IMG/VR virus record: IMGVR_UViG_3300032087_004344
Coordinates: 1-29,836 of that record
Reading direction: 5' to 3' (one strand)
Source: a virus
DNA length: 29,836 nucleotides
Positions within the stretch are counted from its first letter, which is position 1; each line of letters starts with the position of its first letter. Both the position numbers and the translations under genes were made by a program. Below, in pieces: positions 901 through 18,761 of this stretch. The notes under the pieces are model-generated. The model was not told where the DNA came from. It made no database searches and saw only the letters and a program-made list of their open reading frames with translations.

Positions 901-2642
901 CACACAATCCCACCGGGCGGGAGGACGGCCTGTATCTGTGTCGGGCTCGGGAGCTCTCCGGGTCCGATTCCGAGTCCCATCGTGGCGGGTACCTGCTCGG
1001 CGCCCATCGGCGGTCCTGCCTGCGGAGGTGCGGCCGTGGCCACCGGCGGAGGTGCGGGGGTCTCGTCCTCCACTCCGGCCGCGGCCTCTCCGGGGAGGAA
1101 GGACTCCGGGAGGTCCAGCGCTCGGACCAGCTCCGAGAGCACCAGCTCTCGAGGGACTCCGAGCTCGAGGAGCTGCGGGACGGCGCCGATGAGCTCGGAC
1201 TTGCGGACGGCCTCCGAGACTGGAGTGGCGCCGGAGTCCTGCGCGTAGAACGTGAAGTCCCCGTCGAGGTCGTCGGCTCGGATGGCTTGCGCTCGGCCGT
1301 TCAAGCGGACCACCTCCGGCTCGTCTCCGAGAGATAGCCGGACCATGGCCACGTATACCTCGGCCAGCTGGGCGATAGCTGCGTCGCGCTCTCTAGCCAT
1401 CCTGCCCACCTCGCTCGAGGAATACGCGGCCATCGCGGTTACCTCGGTGGCCGTGGCCTTCGTGGCCTCTCCACGTGTGAACGGTGCGAGGATGCTCCCG
1501 CGTGCGAAGTCTTCGTCCACCTGGTTTAGGTAGGTCTGGAGCTCGGCGGGGACGGGGAGGTGGGGGACGGGAACAATCGCTCCGGCCAGCTGCTGGCCTG
1601 GACTGGTCTCCACCTCGATAAACTCTCCATCTTGACCCATGACCATCTTCGCCATGGACTCCGCATCGAGGGTGCCTTTCTGGACAAGCCACTGGCGGGC
1701 GGCGCGGCGGACTCCGTTGGCCTGGTAGGTGCGAATGGTGTTCGATTCCTGGACCTGGTCGTAGACGCGTCGGAGTCCGGAGTAGCCGCGGAGTGGGCGG
1801 TCCGGCTCCCTCGAGAGGTAGAGCGGGACCACGGGGACCAGTGGGTAGTCGTCGGCCGTGCGGACTGGGATGCTGTCCACCTTCTCCGAGACCGGGTCCT
1901 CCACGCCCACCTCGAGCTCGACGCCATCGGCCACCCACTTGGAGCCGTTGGCGTAGTCGGGGGACCAGACCAGGAAGCGGTCGCCGGTGAGGTCGTAGAA
2001 CTCGACCACCTCCACGAACTCTCCAATTGCGTCTTCATCGTCCGGTCCGTAGCTCGGCGCGTCCTCGTCTCCGTTCCGGTCGAGGAACTGGCGGAACGTG
2101 CGCGTGGCCCACTGCTTCCGGCCGTACCGCTCTCGTGCCTCCTCGACGGGCATCATTACGCGGACTCCGACGTAGCGCTGGTAGTCCCAGGCGCGGGCGG
2201 TGTCGTCCACGAGGACGTCCCAGGGGGGGAGCGCTGCAACGGTGACACGCTGGAGCGGGTCGGGATGGGAGCGGGGCGCTACCTTCAGTGCAGCCCATGG
2301 GTAGATGATGGCCAGGCGGAGGGCGTCCTCCATCTGGCGGCGCACGTGCGTCAACCAGTCGTTGGCCAGCGCCTGCGCCTTGTCCTGGTCCCCGCGGCCT
2401 CGGAGGTCTCCTCGAACCACTACGGCCGGGTCCCGCATGAACAACGAGGCCACGTAGGACTCGACGAGCTCGTAGGCTCTCGAGGTCTCCACGAGCATCT
2501 CTCCACGCTGGTCGTAGTTGGTCCGCATCCAGTAGCGCATCTGGTAGGCGTTGCGGAGGCGGCGGAGCTCCGGCCGTCGGTCCTCCCAGTACCGTTCGTG
2601 TTTGTCGTAGATGCTGCGGCACATGGACGGGGTCAGGCTCAT
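900..2642 (-). CDS. Portal (head-tail connector) protein, 580 aa
   Basis: This should form the dodecameric ring at the capsid vertex through which DNA is packaged and ejected. The length, its place directly after the large terminase and before the capsid genes, and the overall pattern fit portals of podoviruses. The N-terminal helical region has conserved-looking YQMRYW and Tyr/Arg-rich segments. A mixed alpha/beta wing follows, including PWDVLVDD near residue 140 and LVPVVPLY near 265. Next come long stem-like helices (about 280-470) containing SGLRRVYDQVQESN, and then a low-complexity Pro/Ala/Gly tail after about 515. ATG 2642 overlaps the terminase stop as ATGA. Assignment rests on context and architecture, not on a search. 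Confidence 0.85.
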   Translation of the reverse strand: MSLTPSMCRSIYDKHERYWEDRRPELRRLRNAYQMRYWMRTNYDQRGEMLVETSRAYELVESYVASLFMRDPAVVVRGDLRGRGDQDKAQALANDWLTHVRRQMEDALRLAIIYPWAALKVAPRSHPDPLQRVTVAALPPWDVLVDDTARAWDYQRYVGVRVMMPVEEARERYGRKQWATRTFRQFLDRNGDEDAPSYGPDDEDAIGEFVEVVEFYDLTGDRFLVWSPDYANGSKWVADGVELEVGVEDPVSEKVDSIPVRTADDYPLVPVVPLYLSREPDRPLRGYSGLRRVYDQVQESNTIRTYQANGVRRAARQWLVQKGTLDAESMAKMVMGQDGEFIEVETSPGQQLAGAIVPVPHLPVPAELQTYLNQVDEDFARGSILAPFTRGEATKATATEVTAMAAYSSSEVGRMARERDAAIAQLAEVYVAMVRLSLGDEPEVVRLNGRAQAIRADDLDGDFTFYAQDSGATPVSEAVRKSELIGAVPQLLELGVPRELVLSELVRALDLPESFLPGEAAAGVEDETPAPPPVATAAPPQAGPPMGAEQVPATMGLGIGPGELPSPTQIQAVLPPGGIV

Positions 2643-4177
2643 GTCGCTACCTCCCAGGGGGTGGACTTGTTCAGGATGCGAGCGGCTCTCCTGCGGTCCA
2701 GGTGTCGCTCCATGAGGTGGGTCCTACTGTATGCCATGTGTGCGGGCGCGTCTCTCGTGGCGCGGTAGGCCAGTGCGAGGGCCATGGCCATGTCGTCATG
2801 GAGACCAGGCGGAGCCTCCGGCGTGACGCGTCGCACCTCGAGCGCTCGGAGCTCCTCGAGCGTGGTGCGGTCCAGCGCCTGGACCACTCCGGACTCGAGG
2901 TATTCCCGGAGCGTCTCGAACGCGTCGAGCTTCGAGCGGACGGTGGTCGTCCACGGTCGGCCGCTCGAGTCTCGCCACTGCTTCCGGTAGCCCATGAGGT
3001 CCAGTTCCCGGAGGACGACGTGGCCGTGGTTGTTGCTTTCCACGAGGACCATGGCGTCCCCGTAGTGGTTCGCTACCTCGAGGACGCGGGCCGCCCACTC
3101 CACCGGGCTCGTGCGGTTGCATCGCTCGAGGTAGACCGGCTGGAACGATGAGAGGCTAACCACGGCCAGCGCGCTGTAGTCGCCACCCACTCCGGCCGCG
3201 ACGTCCACTCCCATGACGTAGGCGTCCAGTTCGTCCGGCGGCTGGAGCTCCCGCTCCGGTCCATCGAACCAAACCGCATCGATGTCCTCGAGCGCCTCGG
3301 CCTGGAGGTAGGTGGACTCTCGAGCGGCGAACGCGTCGGCCAGGCTCCCAGGGTATTCCCGGCGGAACTTCGCCTCTCCGAGCGTTGCTACCTGCTGGCG
3401 CCTCCACGCCAGCTGGTGGTCGTCGAGGTCCCATCGCCTGGCCAGGCGCTCCTCCTCGTCCGTCCGTTCCCAGTCCGGGGGCAAATTTTCGAGGCGGAGG
3501 GCGTGATGCTCGTGCCACCAATACGTGACGACTCGCCATCCGTTCTCGGGGGCTCCCTCGATGAGGCGGTGGAACGTGTCCCCGGGTGCGTTCGGCGTGG
3601 ACTCGATGACCACCTGGCCTCGGCCGACGGTGGCGAGGACTTGTGCGAGGAGCTCCGGCTGGTCCGGGTAGAACGCAAACTCCGAGAGGTGCGCGGCGGT
3701 GAGGGCCACGGACCTGGTCCCACCTCGGCCTCCGGCGGTCCACGAGGCGAGACTGGCGCCGGTGTCTCGGAACTTTGCTTCCGTGGCGGAGTCCACCTCG
3801 AGGTCTCGGCGGAGGAGTGCGGGGAGGTTGTCCATCCATGCGCGGTCGAGCTGGCGGAGGTGGCGGGCGCTCCTCTCGTGGAATGAGAGGACTCCGAGCG
3901 CCACCGGCTCCCTCGAGGTGTAGGCCGTGTGGAGCTGGTGGGCGCGGCATATGGTCGAGATTCCCACTTGGCGGGCCTTGACTACGATGACCCGGGAGTG
4001 GTTGTCGAGCGCCTCGAGGAGTCGGAGCTGGCCGGGATTCGGGACCAGCGGGACTGTCTTCTGCTCCTCCTTATGTGTGATGCGGAGGAGCTTGAAAAAG
4101 GCCAGGCGGTTCCGCAGTAGTCCTGCGACCTGGTCCTGGAGCTCGAGGGGGACGGCGGCGGGGACGTGAATGCTCAC
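2639..4177 (-). CDS. terL: Terminase large subunit (DNA packaging motor), 512 aa
   Basis: An ATPase-nuclease that docks on the portal, pumps DNA into the procapsid and cuts the concatemer. The ATPase half shows the variant Walker A KARQVGIST at residues 67-75, an acidic HLSEFAF segment near 163-169 as the likely Walker B/catalytic Glu, and the coupling-type motif IESTPNAPGD at 191-200. The RNase H-like nuclease half has the expected acidic triad: Asp325 in VMGVDVAAG, Glu380 in VLVESNN, and Asp461/Asp462 in GLHDDMAMA. The start is GTG 4177, which overlaps the small-subunit stop as GTGA. The frame stays open further upstream, but only over the small-terminase gene. Length is normal for the family. 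Confidence 0.95.
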   Translation of the reverse strand: MSIHVPAAVPLELQDQVAGLLRNRLAFFKLLRITHKEEQKTVPLVPNPGQLRLLEALDNHSRVIVVKARQVGISTICRAHQLHTAYTSREPVALGVLSFHERSARHLRQLDRAWMDNLPALLRRDLEVDSATEAKFRDTGASLASWTAGGRGGTRSVALTAAHLSEFAFYPDQPELLAQVLATVGRGQVVIESTPNAPGDTFHRLIEGAPENGWRVVTYWWHEHHALRLENLPPDWERTDEEERLARRWDLDDHQLAWRRQQVATLGEAKFRREYPGSLADAFAARESTYLQAEALEDIDAVWFDGPERELQPPDELDAYVMGVDVAAGVGGDYSALAVVSLSSFQPVYLERCNRTSPVEWAARVLEVANHYGDAMVLVESNNHGHVVLRELDLMGYRKQWRDSSGRPWTTTVRSKLDAFETLREYLESGVVQALDRTTLEELRALEVRRVTPEAPPGLHDDMAMALALAYRATRDAPAHMAYSRTHLMERHLDRRRAARILNKSTPWEVAT

Positions 4178-4542
4178 GCGCCCACCACTTGGAGGAGGCC
4201 GCGGAGCTCGGCCACGGCCTCGTCTCCCGGTCCCTCCTCGGAGGCCGGGGCGCGGATGGCGTCGAGGACGTAGCGCGCGGCCAGTAGCCTGGTCTGCGGG
4301 TTGCCTTCCGCCATGCAATAGCGGAGCGTGCGGAGTGCATGCCCGGCCATCGCTCGGAGCTCCAGTTCCACCTCCTCCGGGGGGGGTGCCTTCTCGAGGC
4401 GGTAGCGGCGGACCACGTCGTCCACGTCCCACTTCCGGACTGTGAGCGGGGAGACCACTCCCTCCTCGAGGAGCTCGGACATGGTCGCGCCTCGCTCGAG
4501 GCGCTCCGCGACTTCCCGCTGGAGCTTGGTGAGGTAGGCCAT
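4174..4542 (-). CDS. Probable terminase small subunit, 122 aa
   Basis: Small terminases recognise the packaging site and load the large subunit. This gene sits directly before the large terminase with a GTGA overlap, is small, and begins with a helix-turn-helix-like stretch: SELLEEGVVSPLTVRKW at residues about 22-38. Helical segments suited to oligomerisation follow, including HALRTLRYC near 69-77. ATG 4542 is chosen because a GGGAGG ribosome site lies just upstream. An in-frame ATG at 4581 has no ribosome site and follows the preceding stop by one base. The family is divergent, so position is the main support. Confidence 0.7.
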   Translation of the reverse strand: MAYLTKLQREVAERLERGATMSELLEEGVVSPLTVRKWDVDDVVRRYRLEKAPPPEEVELELRAMAGHALRTLRYCMAEGNPQTRLLAARYVLDAIRAPASEEGPGDEAVAELRGLLQVVGA

Positions 4543-4582: not shown

Positions 4583-5173
4583 TTAGCGCCCACTCTCGAA
4601 GGTGCGTAGGTTCCCGGAGGTCTTCGGCGGCTCCACGGCCGGTGCCCACCTGGTCCACTCCGGGCGCGCTCCCTTCGTCGAGTCGTCCACGTAGAGCGCC
4701 ACCACTCCGTCCGCCCACTCGTTGGCGGCGCGTTGGCGTTGCGCCGTGGTCTCGAGCTCGGCGCGGTCCATGCGGCGCTCTCCCTCCTTCCCTGCAAGCT
4801 GAAGTCCTCGAGGACACGAGCAGGTGGCTGCGTAGGTTCGGACGCGCTCCGCTCCTCGAATGCGAGTCCGGACCCATGCATGGACCTGGCCACGGCCTTC
4901 GCAGTAGGGGCAGCGCCTCGAGCGCTGGCGGATGGACTCGTCCCTCCGCTGTCCGGCCTCGGAGGCCATCGCCATCCACGTGGAGCGCAGCTCGGCCGGG
5001 GTCGGGCGGTAGGTGGCCGATGCCAGTTGGCGCTCGACGAGTGCTCCGGCCAGGCTCCCGGCCTCCTCCAGGATTCCCTCGAGGGTAGGTCCGAGGAGCT
5101 GCATGTAGTCGCGAGGTGTTCCTGGTCCTGGTAGCGCGCTCAAGCGGCGGACAAGTCGGTCGTGCTTTCCCAT
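4583..5173 (-). CDS. Candidate helicase-loader-like replication protein with zinc motif, 196 aa
   Basis: Not recognised by a signature, but several features fit a phage helicase loader. A helical N-terminal half contains TYRPTPAELRSTW (residues about 54-66), resembling the segment seen in G39P/lambda P-like loaders. It is followed by a cysteine knuckle CPYCEGRGQ at 88-96, which looks like one DnaJ-type CxxCxGxG repeat, and by CSC at 118-120, giving four Cys for one zinc. The gene follows the winged-helix initiator candidate, the same order as lambda O then P. ATG 5173 is chosen because AGGAG lies 8 bases upstream; GTG 5182 is in frame but overlaps that site. Function is inference. Confidence 0.5.
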   Translation of the reverse strand: MGKHDRLVRRLSALPGPGTPRDYMQLLGPTLEGILEEAGSLAGALVERQLASATYRPTPAELRSTWMAMASEAGQRRDESIRQRSRRCPYCEGRGQVHAWVRTRIRGAERVRTYAATCSCPRGLQLAGKEGERRMDRAELETTAQRQRAANEWADGVVALYVDDSTKGARPEWTRWAPAVEPPKTSGNLRTFESGR

Positions 5174-5182
5174 GGTTTCCAC

Positions 5183-5259
5183 TCCTGGGTTGATTCGGTG
5201 AGGCTCTCGTCTCCGTTGAAACTAGCGGTGAGGTTGTCTCCCCACCCTCTCTCTCTATC
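5183..5259. other. Intergenic segment with pyrimidine/purine tract next to the iterons
   Basis: Between the initiator stop and the loader start, 5237-5270 on the plus strand is almost entirely C and T, so the transcribed strand is GA-rich. This runs into TATATG at 5271-5276, beside the iterons. It is the least GC-biased stretch of the neighbourhood and a candidate duplex-unwinding element. AGGAG at 5186-5182 is the ribosome site of the loader gene. No hairpin terminator is obvious. Confidence 0.4.
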
Positions 5260-5682
5260 TCACTCTCTCTTATATGTGGTTCGGGTGTTGGTTCGGGACT
5301 GGTTCGGGTTCGCTGCTATGTCGTTGAAATCCGCGCCGTTCGTTGGTCCGGGACTGGTCCACTTCTTGGTTCGGGTCCGTGTCGCCGTTGCGGCGCGCTG
5401 GACGGGAGTGGCGGGCTGGACGGTCCACTGGATGATTCGGGCGCGGTTGCGGTTCCCGGGCTCGACGGTCCGGAGGACTTCCGCGTCCTCGAGGTCCTCG
5501 AGGAGCTGGCGCGCTCGACGCTTGGAGCACTGACAGACTCCGGCCAGGCGCCGGTCGGTCATGGCCTCCGGCTTCCATCCGCGGATTCTCGAGTCCCGTA
5601 GCAGGCGGACCAGGCCGAGTAGCTCCGCGCCGTCCTCGACGAGCTCGGGGAGGAGGTCCGGGACGGGGGTCCAGCTTCTCAC
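5260..5682 (-). CDS. Candidate replication initiator (lambda O-like), winged helix, 140 aa
   Basis: The protein has a winged helix-turn-helix-like core at residues about 42-75 (TDRRLAGVCQCSKRRARQLL, then EDAEVLRTVEPG), as in phage replication initiators. A basic, Thr/Arg/Asn-rich disordered tail follows (about 95-140). DNA for that tail contains repeated CCCGAACCA units in all three reading frames, the same design as lambda O, where the origin iterons lie inside the initiator gene. GTG 5682 overlaps the regulator stop as GTGA. The frame is open further upstream but would fully overlap the regulator. The candidate loader follows. A transcription factor binding the same repeats is the main alternative. 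Confidence 0.55.
   Translation of the reverse strand: MRSWTPVPDLLPELVEDGAELLGLVRLLRDSRIRGWKPEAMTDRRLAGVCQCSKRRARQLLEDLEDAEVLRTVEPGNRNRARIIQWTVQPATPVQRAATATRTRTKKWTSPGPTNGADFNDIAANPNQSRTNTRTTYKRE
5277..5375. repeat. Two triplets of iterons, candidate replication origin
   Basis: The plus-strand unit TGGTTCGGG occurs perfectly at 5277-5285, 5289-5297, 5300-5308 and 5367-5375, with variant TGGTCCGGG at 5344-5352 and half copy TGGTCC at 5355-5360. Start-to-start distances are 12 and 11 in the first triplet, 44 between triplets, and 11 and 12 in the second. This roughly helical phasing is typical of initiator-binding iterons. Copies lie in three different reading frames of the overlapping gene, so the repetition is selected as DNA and not as protein. 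Confidence 0.6.
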
Positions 5683-5948
5683 TCTGCGCTCCGGTCTGGC
5701 GCGCCCATCGGCTCCACGCCCACCACTCGGAGCGCGAGCTCCTCCAGTGGTCCCTCGAGCACCTCGGCCAGGACTGGCCACGAGGCTCGAGCGGGGAGGC
5801 GCTGGCCGGACGCCCACCTCCAGACGGTCCGTCGGTCCACCGGCGTGTCGGGTTGCGCCGTGGTCATGGCCGTGGCCAATGCTGCGGGGCCACTGTGTCC
5901 GCTCTCGAGGATGGCGGCCTGTAGCCACTCGTGGAAAGGTCGGTGCAT
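5679..5948 (-). CDS. Cro/CI-type helix-turn-helix regulator, 89 aa
   Basis: A small DNA-binding protein with a lambda-repressor-like fold. It shows the helix pattern ALATAMTTAQP near 23-33, followed by the recognition helix DRRTVWRWASGQRLPAR at 38-54, and a short C-terminal helix. There is no peptidase/LexA-like domain, so it resembles Cro or a short repressor rather than a RecA-cleavable CI. ATG 5948 has a good AGGAGG site. It faces the divergent region with two 17-bp palindromes, its likely operators, and overlaps the next gene as GTGA. It is therefore the first gene of the whole leftward unit, which includes the virion genes. Confidence 0.75.
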   Translation of the reverse strand: MHRPFHEWLQAAILESGHSGPAALATAMTTAQPDTPVDRRTVWRWASGQRLPARASWPVLAEVLEGPLEELALRVVGVEPMGAPDRSAE

Positions 5949-6158: not shown

Positions 6159-6527
6159 ATGACGCCGATGCGCCTGGCTTCCATCTTCACGGTCCTGGAT
6201 ACCTACGGGGTCCAGGACGTCCTCCGCGTACAGTCCACGGTCAACCCACTGGACCCGGACAACCATACGACGGCCGTCTGGGTCCGTCCCTCGGACTGGG
6301 TCAACGTCTACGACGCCATCTTCTACGCCACGGACGAGGTCCCGGAGGTCCGGGCCTCGATGGCCACCACTGGCGTGGACATTACTGTAGCGCTCGAGGG
6401 GGACGGGTTCCGCGTGTTTGCGTGGTGGCCAGTGCGGGACCTGGAGTCCGTGTCCGAGCGCCTCGCGGCCTCCGGTGTCGAGGAGCGCAAGGTCCAGGCC
6501 TGGCGCCTGCTCGGGGGTGCGGCGTGA
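6159..6527 (+). CDS. Unknown early protein, 122 aa
   Basis: Not recognised. The gene starts at ATG 6159 behind AAGGGG and ends overlapping the ERF start (GTGA). The protein is soluble, mixed alpha/beta and Val/Asp/Trp-rich, with segments such as TAVWVRPSDWVNVYDAIF (about 38-55) and GFRVFAWWPV (about 83-92). There are no Cys or membrane motifs. The position between the membrane peptide and the recombination protein suggests an early regulatory or DNA-metabolism accessory role, which is speculation. Confidence 0.75.
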   Translation: MTPMRLASIFTVLDTYGVQDVLRVQSTVNPLDPDNHTTAVWVRPSDWVNVYDAIFYATDEVPEVRASMATTGVDITVALEGDGFRVFAWWPVRDLESVSERLAASGVEERKVQAWRLLGGAA

Positions 6528-7213
6528 AGACTTCCGACGCGGTGAACGAACTGGCCACGGCGCTGGCCTCCGCCCAATCAAGCATGGGTCCGGCCATCAA
6601 GGGCGCGCGGAACCCTCACTTCCGGTCCAGCTACGCGGACTTGTCCTCGGTGGTCGAGGCCATCCGGGAGCCGTTCACGGCGAACGGCCTGGCCTGGGTC
6701 CAGGCTCCGGCGCTCGATGTCGAGCGGAACGTGGTCACGGTTACGACTCGCATCCTTCACACTTCCGGCCAGTGGGTGGAGGCGGAGGTCTCGGCGGTAC
6801 CTGGTCGCGGCAAGGGTGCGGACTTGTCTCCTCAGTCCGTCGGCTCGTGTATCACCTACCTCCGACGCTACGGCCTCCAGGCGCTGGCCGGTGTTCCGTC
6901 GGCTGACGATGACGGGGAGGCGGCCATGGGTCGTGGTGGGCGCTCAGCGCCTCGAGGAGGCGCGCGGGGCTCCGCTCCCATGTCTCGGCCTACCTCTCCA
7001 CCTCCGGCGCCTCCTGCGGCGCGCTGGAGCGATGAGGAGCGGGCGCGCTTCTGTGCGGCGCTCGGGGACCTGGGCCTCCAGTATGAGGCGGTCGCGGCGT
7101 ACTGCGAACGGGTGAAGCGTCCCCGGCCTTCCGCCATGGGTGAGGAGCGGCGCGTCCAGCTGCTGGCCTACCTCCAGGGGGCGCCGGACGTAGTCTCGGA
7201 GCTCGGAGAATGA
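6524..7213 (+). CDS. erf: ERF-family single-strand annealing protein, 229 aa
   Basis: ERF proteins anneal complementary single strands and promote circularisation or recombination of phage DNA. The N-terminal core matches the family pattern: NPHFRSSYADLSSV at about 30-43, a beta-rich middle, and QSVGSCITYLRRYGLQALAG at about 104-123 followed by the acidic VPSADDDGE. A Pro/Arg/Gly-rich linker (about 135-165) leads to a helical C-terminal region. GTG 6524 overlaps the previous stop as GTGA. It ends in an ATGA overlap with the next gene. Together with the RuvC-like gene downstream it forms a recombination module, useful for a phage without its own polymerase. Confidence 0.85.
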   Translation: MKTSDAVNELATALASAQSSMGPAIKGARNPHFRSSYADLSSVVEAIREPFTANGLAWVQAPALDVERNVVTVTTRILHTSGQWVEAEVSAVPGRGKGADLSPQSVGSCITYLRRYGLQALAGVPSADDDGEAAMGRGGRSAPRGGARGSAPMSRPTSPPPAPPAARWSDEERARFCAALGDLGLQYEAVAAYCERVKRPRPSAMGEERRVQLLAYLQGAPDVVSELGE

Positions 7214-12578: not shown

Positions 12579-15500
12579 TCACTGCCGGGGTGCCTGCGGG
12601 ATGCGGCGCTCCGCGGTCTCGAGTGCGCGTCCCACGAGCTCCTCGGGGGCGCGTCCCTTCATGGGCGTTTCCGCGCCTGCGATGAATAGCAGCGGGTTGG
12701 CCAGGCCGCGGCGCTTCGGGTCGAATCCGAGCGGGGCCTGGATGCTCTGGCCTATCTTGGCGCCGTCTTCGACTGCTCGACGTCCGGCCATGATGAATGC
12801 CTGGGACTTCAGCTTCTCGAACTCGACGGCCTTCTCCGGGGTTCCGAAACGGTACTGCCGCCCATAGTCCGCGGTCTCGGCTCCGGGATACTTCCGTCCC
12901 TCGGGGAGGGCCTCGAGCTGGAAGTGGTCCCGGAACCATGGCCACATGCCAGTCCCAAACCACGCGTCGTGGTACTGCATGTAGGCGATGTAGCTCGGGT
13001 CCATGTAGCCTTGTGGCCCTACCCTCGAGGACGGCCTGGCCAGTAGGACGTCGGCCGCGGGGATGAGGCGCTCGTCCCGGATGGCTTCCTGTAGACGGCC
13101 TGGCCGGTCGGCCTGTGCGAGGTAGGCCAGCACGTTCAATACGTCGTTGGCCTGCTCGGCTGCTGGGTTCGCTGGTCCATAGAATCCGGTGGCGGTGCCC
13201 TCAATCTCGGGACCTGGGAACGCCCACGCTCGGACCTTGGTGTAGTCCGGACCGTAGAGCCATGCGTTGGCGGCCTGCTGCTGGCGCATCTGGAGGCGCA
13301 TCACACGCGTGAACGTAGACGCGTCCCTGGCCAGTCCCTCGGCCAGTGCGTCCAGCATGGCCATCCGGAACGTAGCGAACAGGACGTAGCGGTTTACGTA
13401 CTGCTTGATAAAACCGGGAACGGCGCCGTAGTCGAGGACGGCGTTGCGTGCGAGTCCGGCCGCTTCCTGGATTGAGTAGCCCTCGCGGAGTGCGGACGCG
13501 AATGCGTTGCGCCGGAAGTAGCCGTCCGTGGCCGTGGCCAGGCTCATAAACGGGTTCACGCTCCGAGGGTCGAGGTGGCGGGCGACGGTCCGCGCCATTC
13601 CAACGGGAGCACCTTCCGCGGTGAGTCGGGCCGCTCGTTGCATTTCTCGAGCGGTCTTCGTACTCCACTCGACGTCGGCGCGGCTGTAATGGATGTTCGC
13701 CGTGTCCATGGCGTCCGAGAGCTCGCCCCATGTCCAGCGCCGTCCATCGGCCGCGGTGAATACCGTCTCCGTCCGAGACCGTGGCGTGATGGCGTCCACG
13801 AGAGTCCGGGCTCCCGTGGTGTCGGTGAGCGTGCGGAGCGTCCGGCCTGCTCCCAGCGTGGTGAGCATGATTAGCGGCGCGGTGAGGAGGTTCATTCCGA
13901 GGTACCGCGTGTTCGGCATCGGAACTACAAACGGGAGGCCGGGTCCCTCCTCGTCTGCGAATGGGAACACGTAGGCGAATCCCATAGCCAGGGCGCCGGT
14001 AGCGGCCACGGTGCGGGGCATACTCAGCGCATGGTCCAGAACTCCGAGCGCCATGGCGCCTGCGGACCTGGCCGTCTTCCCGCGTGCCTTAAGGAGCTCG
14101 TCCAGCGTTTGGCGGAGCTTCCCGGACTCGGCTGCGGAGCGGAGGCTCCGGACCGTCTCGACGGCCTCCGGACCGTAGACGAGGAGGCGGCGGTCCGTGG
14201 GGTCCAGTGCGTTGGCGGCGCGGATGAGGTAGTCCCCGGCTCCGCTGTCCATCGTGGCCAGGCCGGTGAGGCCGTAGGCTCGGAGCTGGTTGGCTACCTC
14301 GAGGCGCGGTCCCTCGAGGAGGCCACGTCCCTGGAGTCCCAGGATTCCGTCCATGTAGGCGTTGGCGAGTGCGTCCACTGCATTGAACCGTTCCACCTCG
14401 AGACCGGCCTGGCGTGCCTCCTGCTCCGCTCCTCGGATGCGTCCGAGAATCCGGCGGAGCTCGTCCGAGACTCTCGAGACCGGCTCGTCCATGCGCGCAC
14501 GTGCGGCCACGTCCCGGATAACGGTGGCGGCCTTCAAGTGGTGGACGCGCTGGGTCCCCGCTCCACCGGGGTCCACGTAGTCCATGAGGTCATCGAAGCG
14601 GAGGTCCGGCGGGAGGTCCGGGAAGTCTCGGACCGTAGCCGCGTCGAGGATGCGGCCGACCCTCTCGTAGGTGGCCTGCTTCTGGAGCGCCTCGGCCTGG
14701 CCGAGTGTCCGGCTGTAGATTTCTCCGACGTCGGGGTAGAGCGTCTGCTGTGCAACGCTTTCCCGAAGGAGCTCGTCCACGAGTCCAGCTCGTTGCGACG
14801 GGGAAAGGTTCACGACCAGGCGCTGGGCCAGCGTGTCGAACATGGAGAACAGCGGGTCCGTCGGGTCGAGCGAACGGATGCGGAGCGCCTCGAGGTCGAG
14901 GAGTGCGGCGCGGTAGGCTTCCGGCTCCATGTCGCTGGCCTCGATGGCCTCCCGTAGACGCTCGATGACGGTGGACCGTCCGAGGGTCGAGAGGTTCCCG
15001 GCGTCGCTTGGATACAGCGTCGTGAACTGAGTCCGCAGTCCGGGGGACAAGTCCACGCGGAGCTCGGGATGGGTGTCCAGTAGCTCGTCCATGGCGCGGC
15101 GAACGTGTCGGCCACGGTCGGCCTCGAGTGCCCACGTGGAGAGCGTCCGGAACAAGTCGTCCCGGAGGAACGCTTGCAGCGGTCCGCTGGCCTTCCGCTT
15201 GAACAGTGCGCGGACTCCGGCCGGGATGTCCACGGCGAACACTCCACGGTCTCGGAGTGTGTCGGGCGCCCGTTGGCGGAGAAGCTCGAGGACGTCCCGG
15301 AGGTCCCCGGTGGTGATTGGCCTGTAGCTCGAGCCGAGTCCGGCCGCGGCCTGGCGGCCTGCTGCATCGAGGCGGGCCACCTCCGGGCGGAGGATTACCT
15401 CATCGAGGTGGGGCGCCACTCCGGCGTCGTACACGCTTCCGAAAAATGAACGGAGGATGGACTCCCAGCTCTGGCGATACGGCCTGGCCGATACGGCGTC

Positions 15501-18500
15501 CCGGGTCAATCGCTGGAGCTCGGCCAGCTCCTCGGCGTTGCGCGGGCGCTGGACGCGGTAGATACCTCGTCCGGCCTGGTAGCTCTCGCGGGCCTGGTAG
15601 CCTACCTGGAACCACGCGTCTGCCTCGGACATACCGGCGGCCTGGAGCTGGGCCACTTCGTCCTCGAGCTCTCGGAATACCTGGGAGACGGTCCGGGCCT
15701 GGCGGCGCTCGAGGACTACGTTGAACCCTTCTTCCGGGTTCGGTGCGCGCTTTGCTTCCGTGGCGAGCTCCTCCATGAAACGGTCCCCGACGGTGGGGAT
15801 GGTCTCGCGGAGCTCCGACAGTGCGCGGTAGAGCGGGGCCGGTGTGCGGTCCGGGTCTGCTCCCTTGAACCACCGGCGGGCCGAGTCGGGGAACACTGCC
15901 TCCGCGGCTCGGCGGACGGGTCGCGGGGTGAACCCTCCGACGAGGTCCGCTCCGGCTCGGAGTGCGTCCCGGAACCCTCCTCGACGCTCTCGAGGAACGA
16001 GCGCGCGCTGGAGCTGGCGGCCTCCAGTGGTCGGCTCGAGGACCGTCACTCCACGCGCCTCGAGGACCAGGCGGTAGAGCGCTGCACGGATGGAGTCCTC
16101 CACCTCCGCACGTTGCGCCATGTCGAGCGGCGTTCCACTGCGGAGCGCCTCGAGCGCCTGGCGGGCGGTCCTGCTCTGGCGGATGTAGAGCGGGGAAACG
16201 CTGTTGGCGTATGCCTCGGCCACTCCGATGTTGTCGAGGTAGGTGGTGACCACTCCATCCGGGGTCACGGCCTGCGAGCTCTTCAGGATGTCGTCGCTTG
16301 CGGCGCCCACCACTCGGAGGACGTCCCCGTCCTCGAGGGCTGCTCGAGGAACGAGGAGCGAACGCGCGACCAGGACCATGTCGTCCGGGACTGCATCGAG
16401 GAGCGTGGAGGCCACGTCCTCTCCAATGGCGGAGCGGAGTGCGAACTCCACGGCGTCCGGGGATGCTCCCTCGAGCGTGACTCCAGCGGCTCGGAGCTCT
16501 CCGGCCACGTCCTCGACGTCCGTCCGTGCAAGCGCCTCCACTGCTCGACGGGTGTCCACCTGGCGGCGGTTGTAGGCGGTCAACGCTCGGAGGAAGCGCC
16601 TGGCCAGTGGCCCACGTGGGGCTCCGGCCTCTCCTGCTCGAGTGGCCAGGACCTTGACCTGGTCCGCAAGTGCCAGCGCTCGGCGGAGCGTCGGGGACGG
16701 TGCGCGGGCGGCGGAACCCAGGGACATGCGTGCGGCCTCGAGGACTCGGCGGAGGTCGCGCGGGTCCGGGTTGGCGGCCACGAGTCGGAGGATGACCGAC
16801 TCTCCGGCGTTCCATCCGGGGATGGCCTGCTCGAGGTGGCGGGCGATGGCGGGCGCGTCTGCTCCTCCCTCGACCAGGCGGAGCACCTCGGCCGCTTCCC
16901 ATGTCTCGCGCCATGCCTGGGTCCGGCGTCCCATGTCGGCCACGTCAATCATGCCGGACGCGTCCTCGAGGTCGTCGAGGATTTTCGCCACGTGCGGGTT
17001 CCCGGTGAGCGCATCGAGGGCCGCACGTGGAACGGTGGCCACTCCATTCGCTCGGAGCTGTGCGGCGGCCGTGTCGAGCGCCGCGGGTCCGGCTACCTCA
17101 TCCGCCACCACTGCGGCGGCCTGCGCTCGGACCGTAGCCGCGTCGAGGCCGGAGATTCTCTCGGCTGCTTCCGGCGCCACTCCATCGAGCTCGAGGAGTG
17201 CTCGACGGGCCGTCTTCTGTGCGCGGGCGTACTCGAGAGGGTTGGACGCTACGGTGAGCGTGTCGGCCAGGCGGGTGGCGCCTCGGCCTCGAGCGGCGCG
17301 GGCTGCGGCCTGCGCTCCTCGTGCCAGTCCCTTCCCGACGGTCCGCGCTCCCGTGGTGGGGAGCAGCGCCTCCATCAGGGTAAACGCGGTGAAGGGGTGC
17401 TGCGCGTATTCGTACCACTTGGTGTCGCGCTCCTCGAGCGGGTCCACCGGAAACGCGGTGAGCGGGAGACTGGCGGCCATGTCTCCGAGGCCACGGCCTA
17501 CGGCCTGGGCCTGGCTTAGGTCCACGAGGAAGCGGCCGGTGGTCTCGATGGTCCGGCGGCCTTCGGGGTCGAAGGCGGTGGGGGCGTCGGTTTCAATCGG
17601 CTGGAACGGTCGCGGGAGACGGTTCAATCCGAGGAGGACGGCGCCGGGGTTAATGCCGGAAAACCCACCTCCGGCTCCAGCCGGTCCGATGTCCTCGAGC
17701 GCCTCGGTGGGGAGGAGACGGTCCTGCTTCATGTAGTCGGGGAACTGCTGCTGCAAGGTAGCAGCGATGCGATATCCGAGACTCTCGGGGTCCGCGGGTC
17801 GGAGGTTCCCGTCCTCGTCTCGGACCACCTCGTAGGTGAGCGGCGTTTCCCGGATGCCAGCGGACACGAGTGTGGGCAGGATGTTTAGGACGTACCGGAA
17901 AGCGGCGCCGGTGGGTGTCTCGACCACTCGTCCCGGGCCTGCTGCTCCGCCCACCTCCGGCTCGGTGAGCAGTCCAGCGATTACCGGTCCCTCCTCCTCG
18001 AGGTACTGGCGGTAGCGTTCCTGGACTCCGACGTCCGAGAGTGGGGAAGCCTCGAGGCTCTCCATGAACTCGGCGCGGGCCTGCTGGCGCTGCTCCTGAA
18101 TCTCCTGGCGCTCCTCCGGCTGGACCACGGTCTGGCGTGCCATCGGCTCCACGAGGAGCTCGAGCGTGGTGGCCGGGCGTATGCGTCCGTCCTCCTCGTC
18201 CCGTACAAACCCGGGGCTCCCGGGTACCAGTCGGGACTCCCGGGTGAACGGGAGGAGCGTTCCGAGGAGACCAGTGGTGGGACTCGAGACCGTTCCCTCC
18301 ACGTCCACGGCCTGGCCGAGTGGGCCATAGACCATGGCCGACGCTCGGCGCTCGGCCTCCTCGAGGGGGATTCCCTGTGTCGGTCCCGTGTAGTAGTCCA
18401 CGTACTGGCGGTAGCGCTCCGCGGCCAGGCGCTCGAGGTCGTAGCTGGACGGGATGTCGCGACCACGGGCGCGGTCCTGCGCGGTGGGTGTCGGCTGTGC

Positions 18501-18761
18501 TCCGATGAATGGCGGGAGGTCTCGTTGTGCTCGAGGCTCCGGGCCCACCTCGATGGCGGGCTGGACTCGTGGCGGCTCGGGTACCTCGAGGTCAGACTGG
18601 AAACCGACCGGGGCGGCGGGCGCCTGGCCTACCACCGGCGCCTCGACGGCCTCCGGGCCTGGTTCTGCGAGGGCGGCCTGGCGCTCGAAGTATTCCACGA
18701 GAGACATGGCGCCCGTGGCGCGGGCCTCCTCGGCGCGCTGGAGGTACTCCTCCCGTGTCAT
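12579..18761 (-). CDS. Giant internal virion / ejection protein (gp16-like position), 2060 aa
   Basis: This single gene is about a fifth of the genome. By order it corresponds to the third internal virion protein of T7-like phages, ejected with DNA to form a trans-envelope channel. The first 450 residues are Pro/Glu/Arg-rich and disordered-looking. A long Ala/Arg/Asp/Glu helical body follows. Hydrophobic segments lie near residues 1570-1600 (VAATGALAMGFAYVFPF) and 1618-1637 (LTAPLIMLTTLGAG). A later aromatic segment (GAVPGFIKQYVNRYVLFATF, about 1775-1795) resembles the C-terminal domains of large polyvalent phage proteins. I see no lysozyme or transglycosylase motif. ATG 18761 overlaps the upstream stop as ATGA. 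Confidence 0.75.
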   Translation of the reverse strand: MTREEYLQRAEEARATGAMSLVEYFERQAALAEPGPEAVEAPVVGQAPAAPVGFQSDLEVPEPPRVQPAIEVGPEPRAQRDLPPFIGAQPTPTAQDRARGRDIPSSYDLERLAAERYRQYVDYYTGPTQGIPLEEAERRASAMVYGPLGQAVDVEGTVSSPTTGLLGTLLPFTRESRLVPGSPGFVRDEEDGRIRPATTLELLVEPMARQTVVQPEERQEIQEQRQQARAEFMESLEASPLSDVGVQERYRQYLEEEGPVIAGLLTEPEVGGAAGPGRVVETPTGAAFRYVLNILPTLVSAGIRETPLTYEVVRDEDGNLRPADPESLGYRIAATLQQQFPDYMKQDRLLPTEALEDIGPAGAGGGFSGINPGAVLLGLNRLPRPFQPIETDAPTAFDPEGRRTIETTGRFLVDLSQAQAVGRGLGDMAASLPLTAFPVDPLEERDTKWYEYAQHPFTAFTLMEALLPTTGARTVGKGLARGAQAAARAARGRGATRLADTLTVASNPLEYARAQKTARRALLELDGVAPEAAERISGLDAATVRAQAAAVVADEVAGPAALDTAAAQLRANGVATVPRAALDALTGNPHVAKILDDLEDASGMIDVADMGRRTQAWRETWEAAEVLRLVEGGADAPAIARHLEQAIPGWNAGESVILRLVAANPDPRDLRRVLEAARMSLGSAARAPSPTLRRALALADQVKVLATRAGEAGAPRGPLARRFLRALTAYNRRQVDTRRAVEALARTDVEDVAGELRAAGVTLEGASPDAVEFALRSAIGEDVASTLLDAVPDDMVLVARSLLVPRAALEDGDVLRVVGAASDDILKSSQAVTPDGVVTTYLDNIGVAEAYANSVSPLYIRQSRTARQALEALRSGTPLDMAQRAEVEDSIRAALYRLVLEARGVTVLEPTTGGRQLQRALVPRERRGGFRDALRAGADLVGGFTPRPVRRAAEAVFPDSARRWFKGADPDRTPAPLYRALSELRETIPTVGDRFMEELATEAKRAPNPEEGFNVVLERRQARTVSQVFRELEDEVAQLQAAGMSEADAWFQVGYQARESYQAGRGIYRVQRPRNAEELAELQRLTRDAVSARPYRQSWESILRSFFGSVYDAGVAPHLDEVILRPEVARLDAAGRQAAAGLGSSYRPITTGDLRDVLELLRQRAPDTLRDRGVFAVDIPAGVRALFKRKASGPLQAFLRDDLFRTLSTWALEADRGRHVRRAMDELLDTHPELRVDLSPGLRTQFTTLYPSDAGNLSTLGRSTVIERLREAIEASDMEPEAYRAALLDLEALRIRSLDPTDPLFSMFDTLAQRLVVNLSPSQRAGLVDELLRESVAQQTLYPDVGEIYSRTLGQAEALQKQATYERVGRILDAATVRDFPDLPPDLRFDDLMDYVDPGGAGTQRVHHLKAATVIRDVAARARMDEPVSRVSDELRRILGRIRGAEQEARQAGLEVERFNAVDALANAYMDGILGLQGRGLLEGPRLEVANQLRAYGLTGLATMDSGAGDYLIRAANALDPTDRRLLVYGPEAVETVRSLRSAAESGKLRQTLDELLKARGKTARSAGAMALGVLDHALSMPRTVAATGALAMGFAYVFPFADEEGPGLPFVVPMPNTRYLGMNLLTAPLIMLTTLGAGRTLRTLTDTTGARTLVDAITPRSRTETVFTAADGRRWTWGELSDAMDTANIHYSRADVEWSTKTAREMQRAARLTAEGAPVGMARTVARHLDPRSVNPFMSLATATDGYFRRNAFASALREGYSIQEAAGLARNAVLDYGAVPGFIKQYVNRYVLFATFRMAMLDALAEGLARDASTFTRVMRLQMRQQQAANAWLYGPDYTKVRAWAFPGPEIEGTATGFYGPANPAAEQANDVLNVLAYLAQADRPGRLQEAIRDERLIPAADVLLARPSSRVGPQGYMDPSYIAYMQYHDAWFGTGMWPWFRDHFQLEALPEGRKYPGAETADYGRQYRFGTPEKAVEFEKLKSQAFIMAGRRAVEDGAKIGQSIQAPLGFDPKRRGLANPLLFIAGAETPMKGRAPEELVGRALETAERRIPQAPRQ

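Follow-up and report, generated by a model that had tools for sequence, protein, structure and literature searches.

A candidate replication origin of the lambda O type at the 3' end of a short putative initiator gene in an uncultured phage

The window, that is the whole stretch of DNA analysed, is a 29,836-base linear IMG/VR record. On its minus strand the genes follow one another in the order H, a gene for a 140-aa protein, Z, a probable small terminase, the large terminase and the portal protein. Gene H (5679..5948, minus strand) encodes a small regulator-like helix-turn-helix (HTH) protein (phrog_3949 repressor, E=0.011), is conserved in relatives and is translated just before the 140-aa protein (5260..5682, minus strand), the GTG start codon of which overlaps the stop codon of H. 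The next gene downstream, Z (4583..5173, minus strand), codes for 196 aa with a CxxCxGxG...CxC motif and is conserved in ten loci, while family scans gave no match for it. Z was also considered as the small terminase and rejected in favour of a better candidate at 4174-4536. This probable small terminase subunit (4174..4536, minus strand), likewise lacking a family match, is assigned by its position ahead of the large terminase TerL (2639-4177, minus strand) and by homologues located before TerL in G040 and G042.

The divergent early operon on the plus strand harbors an ERF-family single-strand annealing protein (6524..7213, plus strand; Pfam ERF, E=2.8e-21) and a protein with a RuvC-like start, for which an IDPG motif was read by eye and no Pfam match was obtained. 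Family scans of the main ORFs of the window recognised no polymerase, helicase or loader, in agreement with an earlier sequence-only reading of this DNA that had pointed out the missing polymerase gene. A 2060-aa ORF at 12579-18761 (minus strand) is without a Pfam match, and its PHROGs match is no more than borderline. The record is mosaic: the closest counterparts of the early genes, H and Z are those of G042/G040 (68-70% for ERF, 85% for the product of 6159-6527), and those of the structural genes belong to G002/G036 (71% for the major head protein, 62-64% for TerL).

The 3' end of the 140-aa gene contains four exact copies of TGGTTCGGG (CCCGAACCA on the coding strand) at 5277, 5289, 5300 and 5367, a copy with one mismatch, TGGTCCGGG, at 5344 and a half unit, TGGTCC, at 5355, which is exactly the inventory reported earlier. 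With start-to-start spacings of 12, 11, 44, 11 and 12 bp these units form a proximal triplet (5277..5308, minus strand) of three perfect CCCGAACCA copies spaced by 12 and 11 bp, and a distal triplet (5344..5375, minus strand) composed of the one-mismatch copy, the half unit and the fourth perfect copy. The separation of 44 bp given for the triplets is correct as a start-to-start distance, but the actual gap is 35 bp; similarly, the numbers of the mirror-image spacing (12/11 and 11/12) hold, but the symmetry hinges on the half unit. At 10.5 bp/turn the units within each triplet are phased to within about 70 degrees, whereas an angle of about 137 degrees separates the two triplets and all six units align only at 11 bp/turn, and the proposed helical phasing thus applies within but not between the triplets. 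Copies in all three codon frames are obtained if the one-mismatch copy is counted, the perfect copies occupying only two; copies in different frames encode different residues. A possible further unit with one mismatch, CCCGAATCA (5433..5441, minus strand), is weak, as it scores like chance matches elsewhere in the window.

Four perfect 9-mers within 99 bp constitute the sole such cluster across the 29.8-kb window; nowhere else in it does a non-simple 9-mer occur three or more times within 120 bp. Among 200 third-order Markov sequences as long as the window and 2000 synonymous recodings of the ORF, not one reached four copies. The raw excess of matches with at most one mismatch is only mild (17 in the whole window versus 11.6 expected), and the significance resides in the clustering and not in the raw match count. 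The iteron repeats are real and non-random.

Directly abutting the iterons and crossing the stop codon of the 140-aa gene lies a weak purine-rich tract, CATATAAGAGAG... (5237..5276, minus strand), a candidate DNA unwinding element. Among all 30-bp duplexes of the record, its segment 5247-5276 has the lowest stability (4.8 sd from the mean); 5237-5271, with 32 pyrimidines among 35 bases, is the longest polypyrimidine run of the plus strand; the near-pure pyrimidine tract described previously at the left side of the cluster is thereby confirmed. No DnaA box is found near the iterons, the two one-mismatch matches both being far away. GC skew, suggested earlier as a check, was computed and displays no switch at the cluster; it is uninformative as an origin marker. 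At fourfold sites the GC skew on the plus strand is positive for all minus-strand genes and nearly all plus-strand genes, which suggests a strand-biased process acting over the whole record.

The 140-aa protein, a probable origin-binding initiator, contains a helix-turn-helix-like part at about residues 14-66. Codons 1-95 of the ORF are coding by codon statistics (GC by codon position 0.76/0.48/0.87), and the iteron-coded tail has an atypical composition (0.44/0.67/0.69). Only five codons remain between the iterons and the stop at 5260, which is found in the same place in the close relative L002. An extension of the protein past 5260 by frameshifting was rejected, as a 1-base length difference from L002 just after the stop breaks any shared frame. 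The whole protein matches phrog_391 'replication initiation O-like' with E=0.0016, but this match depends on the iteron-coded tail and disappears in its absence; a reversed-sequence control reaches E=0.012 with another family. Without this tail no significant homology to initiators is observed; a profile of the O-like N-termini surveyed below matches the ORF with E=7 only, and winged-helix Pfam matches are weak and below the cut-off. A C-terminal domain for contacts to a helicase or loader is absent, and a C-terminal profile search of the window returned nothing significant. The predicted structure is of low confidence (mean pLDDT 47-49) and in a fold search retrieved only generic winged-helix regulators without significance; it is therefore left out as evidence. 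Direct relatives of the protein were found neither by a word-based scan of viral contigs nor by tblastn (phages at E of at least 0.2, no relative in the plasmid collection), and 298 genomes of one phylum gave chance-level matches only. The case for an initiator is built on anatomy and conservation, not on homology. Given the missing C-terminal part and a homology to O that is not established, the protein is not assigned to the O family.

A single close relative, L002 (TerL 88%, Z 92%), was found. Its contig begins inside the region and covers the proximal but not the distal triplet. L002 keeps 40 of 42 bases of the proximal triplet (95.2%), including 27 of 27 iteron bases, and 42 of 43 bases of the tract (97.7%) plus one 1-base gap, whereas the remaining intergenic DNA is 71% identical and the third codon positions within Z are 59% identical. 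The contrast with these third positions gives a Fisher p=2e-11, which is indicative since neighbouring bases are not independent. Judged from this alignment, the proximal triplet and the tract are conserved as DNA. As to the earlier suggestion to see whether iterons stay conserved where the protein varies, no relative combines kept iterons with a varying peptide.

Nine further, more distant loci (L079-L086 and L088, with the near-duplicates L080/L081 and L083/L084) share H, Z and, where the contig covers it, ERF. The 140-aa gene and the iterons are together absent between H and Z in all nine. That gene and iterons come and go together supports their being one unit; at the same time, the phage group does not depend on this unit, as loci lacking both exist. 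In the gene-less loci the slot between H and Z is occupied by a conserved noncoding element ending with CTTGACGnnnnTGGGTAnTATC, from which L079 departs in the second half. CTTGACGnnnnTGGGTAnTATC is located at L080:5864, L082:5931, L083:590, L084:608, L085:2014, L086:2339 and L088:1529, each time preceded by a conserved stretch; the element is promoter-like, yet its 8-bp gap misfits a standard sigma-70 promoter. The early operon of G040, G041 and G042, which have no 140-aa gene, contains a gene of unknown function (L080:3006-3677 and L082:3125-3592, both minus strand) that is absent from the window and is possibly a candidate for an alternative replication protein.

Besides L002, a scan of viral contigs for the iteron pattern yielded mainly coding microsatellites of the Pro-Glu type, a scan with GAACCACATATAAGAGAG found L002 plus two unrelated A+T-rich contigs, and a last scan with gene H revealed no further relatives. 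A 9-mer cluster in L071/L072 was set aside, as it looks like a coding repeat. Several TerL relatives carry dense, mostly noncoding arrays of palindromes of about 13 bp, of the type TGAACAnnTGTTCA, upstream of TerL (L017:1875-1990, L018:2977-3133, L040:232-286, L048:322-551, L038:4851-4971), which look like multiple copies of one operator.

A survey covered viral contigs retrieved by way of ERF, together with L069, which came from a TerL relative. Fourteen other O/DnaD-like genes (L069, L109, L146, L118 and others) carry internal repeat clusters placed after the HTH part, and the eight that were scanned all match replication-initiation or DnaD-like families. As in the window, the repeats are followed by DNA that is purine-biased in most genes (purine content 49-78% over the first 45 bases) and in most A+T-richer than the contig. 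Some of these clusters, such as that of L130, are short tandem repeats and possibly not true iterons. All 14 genes continue for 95-211 codons past the repeats, in contrast to five in the window gene. The module is accordingly less unusual than the sequence-only reading had assumed, repeats inside O-like genes being common; the odd feature, absent from that reading, is the end of the gene immediately behind the iterons.

In phage lambda, whose origin lies within gene O, the iterons are succeeded by A+T-rich DNA that has nearly all its purines on a single strand (PMC5043065, PMC7466680), and these papers uphold lambda O as the precedent cited earlier for iterons within an initiator gene. The window resembles this origin and those of Stx phages in the order of the elements: iterons lie inside the putative initiator gene after its DNA-binding part, and the adjacent weak, strand-asymmetric tract, also kept in L002, is A+T-richer with purines on one strand. 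Lambda iterons, however, are 19-bp inverted repeats in mid-gene, after which O continues, whereas those of the window are 9-bp direct repeats occupying the final codons, its tract extends beyond the stop codon, and neither a C-terminal domain nor a P-like loader is recognisable. A further similarity exists to SPP1, where the oriL repeats and an A+T-rich unwinding element reside in gene 38, the gene of the origin-binding protein gp38, and which like the window phage has a single-strand annealing protein (PMC6316719). SPP1 additionally codes for the loader gp39 and the helicase gp40 and possesses a second origin; the window, where the main ORFs were scanned, yielded none of these. Iteron plasmid origins share direct repeats near helical spacing and an A+T-richer region alongside; in contrast to them, the window has its iterons inside a gene, no nearby DnaA box and no relative in the plasmid collection.

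Taken as a whole, the segment is probably a phage replication origin in the style of lambda O and SPP1 gp38, situated inside a truncated initiator gene. The candidate origin proposed by the sequence-only reading is thus partly supported: by the uniqueness of the cluster, by the adjoining DNA, which is the weakest and most strand-asymmetric of the record, by the DNA conservation in L002 and by the succession of an HTH part, repeats and a mostly purine-biased tract that recurs in the 14 other viral genes. Against it stand the nine related loci that have the same early genes and manage without the unit, the absent C-terminal part for helicase contact, the low-confidence structure, the tail-dependent phrog_391 match, and the lack of a GC-skew switch and of a relative with kept iterons and varied peptide. 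The site most likely would work like a lambda-type origin. The 140-aa HTH protein would bind the CCCGAACCA iterons located at the 3' end of the gene encoding it, and the resulting complex would strain the adjoining purine-biased CATATAAGAGAG tract (5276-5237), which may then open as the entry site for the replicative helicase and polymerase of the host. Host enzymes are invoked because neither gene was recognised in the record, and the helicase would have to be recruited without the C-terminal part of comparable proteins. ERF and the RuvC-like protein may serve later recombination.

The serious, main rival, though a less likely one, is a transcription switch in which the HTH protein acts as activator (or autorepressor) and the iterons are operators before a promoter for Z, the terminases and the structural genes, with TATAAG at about 5274-5269 (minus strand), 2 bp away from the last iteron, as proposed -10 element. 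The site stands at the start of the packaging operon, some 100 bp ahead of Z, in a slot where relatives have the conserved promoter-like noncoding element; moreover, the protein is short, a spacing of 11-12 bp is also usual among activator sites, and a weak match to phrog_836 'late transcriptional activator' (E=0.027-0.059) exists. However, no promoter pair of the sigma-70 type was found beside the sites. Furthermore, a conserved 40-bp purine tract comprising the weakest DNA of the record is unneeded downstream of a promoter, and a location in the 3' coding end of a regulator's own gene is uncommon among operators yet common among origins. Less probable again is a split or minimal initiator, where the short protein would only mark and strain the origin while helicase loading is left to a separate protein, the adjacent CxxC protein Z being the nearest candidate, or to direct contact with the host helicase; the module would then have replaced the promoter-like element, and perhaps a different replication start, of sister phages.

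Recognition of the repeats by the small terminase as a packaging site (pac/cos) is highly improbable: repeats close to terminase genes would suit such a site, but some 740 bp, including Z, lie between these repeats and the probable small terminase gene, and relatives with homologous small terminases have no iterons. Hardly to be expected at all is a coding or simple-sequence repeat without DNA function. The motif is indeed in coding DNA, and in several other viral contigs repeated CCCGAACCA is a coding microsatellite, but here the copies encode different residues in their different frames, the synonymous recodings never yielded four of them, and the noncoding tract past the stop codon is conserved along with them.

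As a replication origin of the lambda O or SPP1 gp38 style, the segment would belong to an already known kind in a variant form, with the gene stopping right after the sites. It would then provide a mapped candidate origin for a group of uncultured phages of about 30 kb with no recognised polymerase, helicase or loader, and the shortest initiator gene with an internal origin in this survey, raising the question of how little an initiator needs. The arrangement also suggests that an iteron cluster beside the weakest DNA of a genome may flag origins whose initiator has no recognisable homologue.
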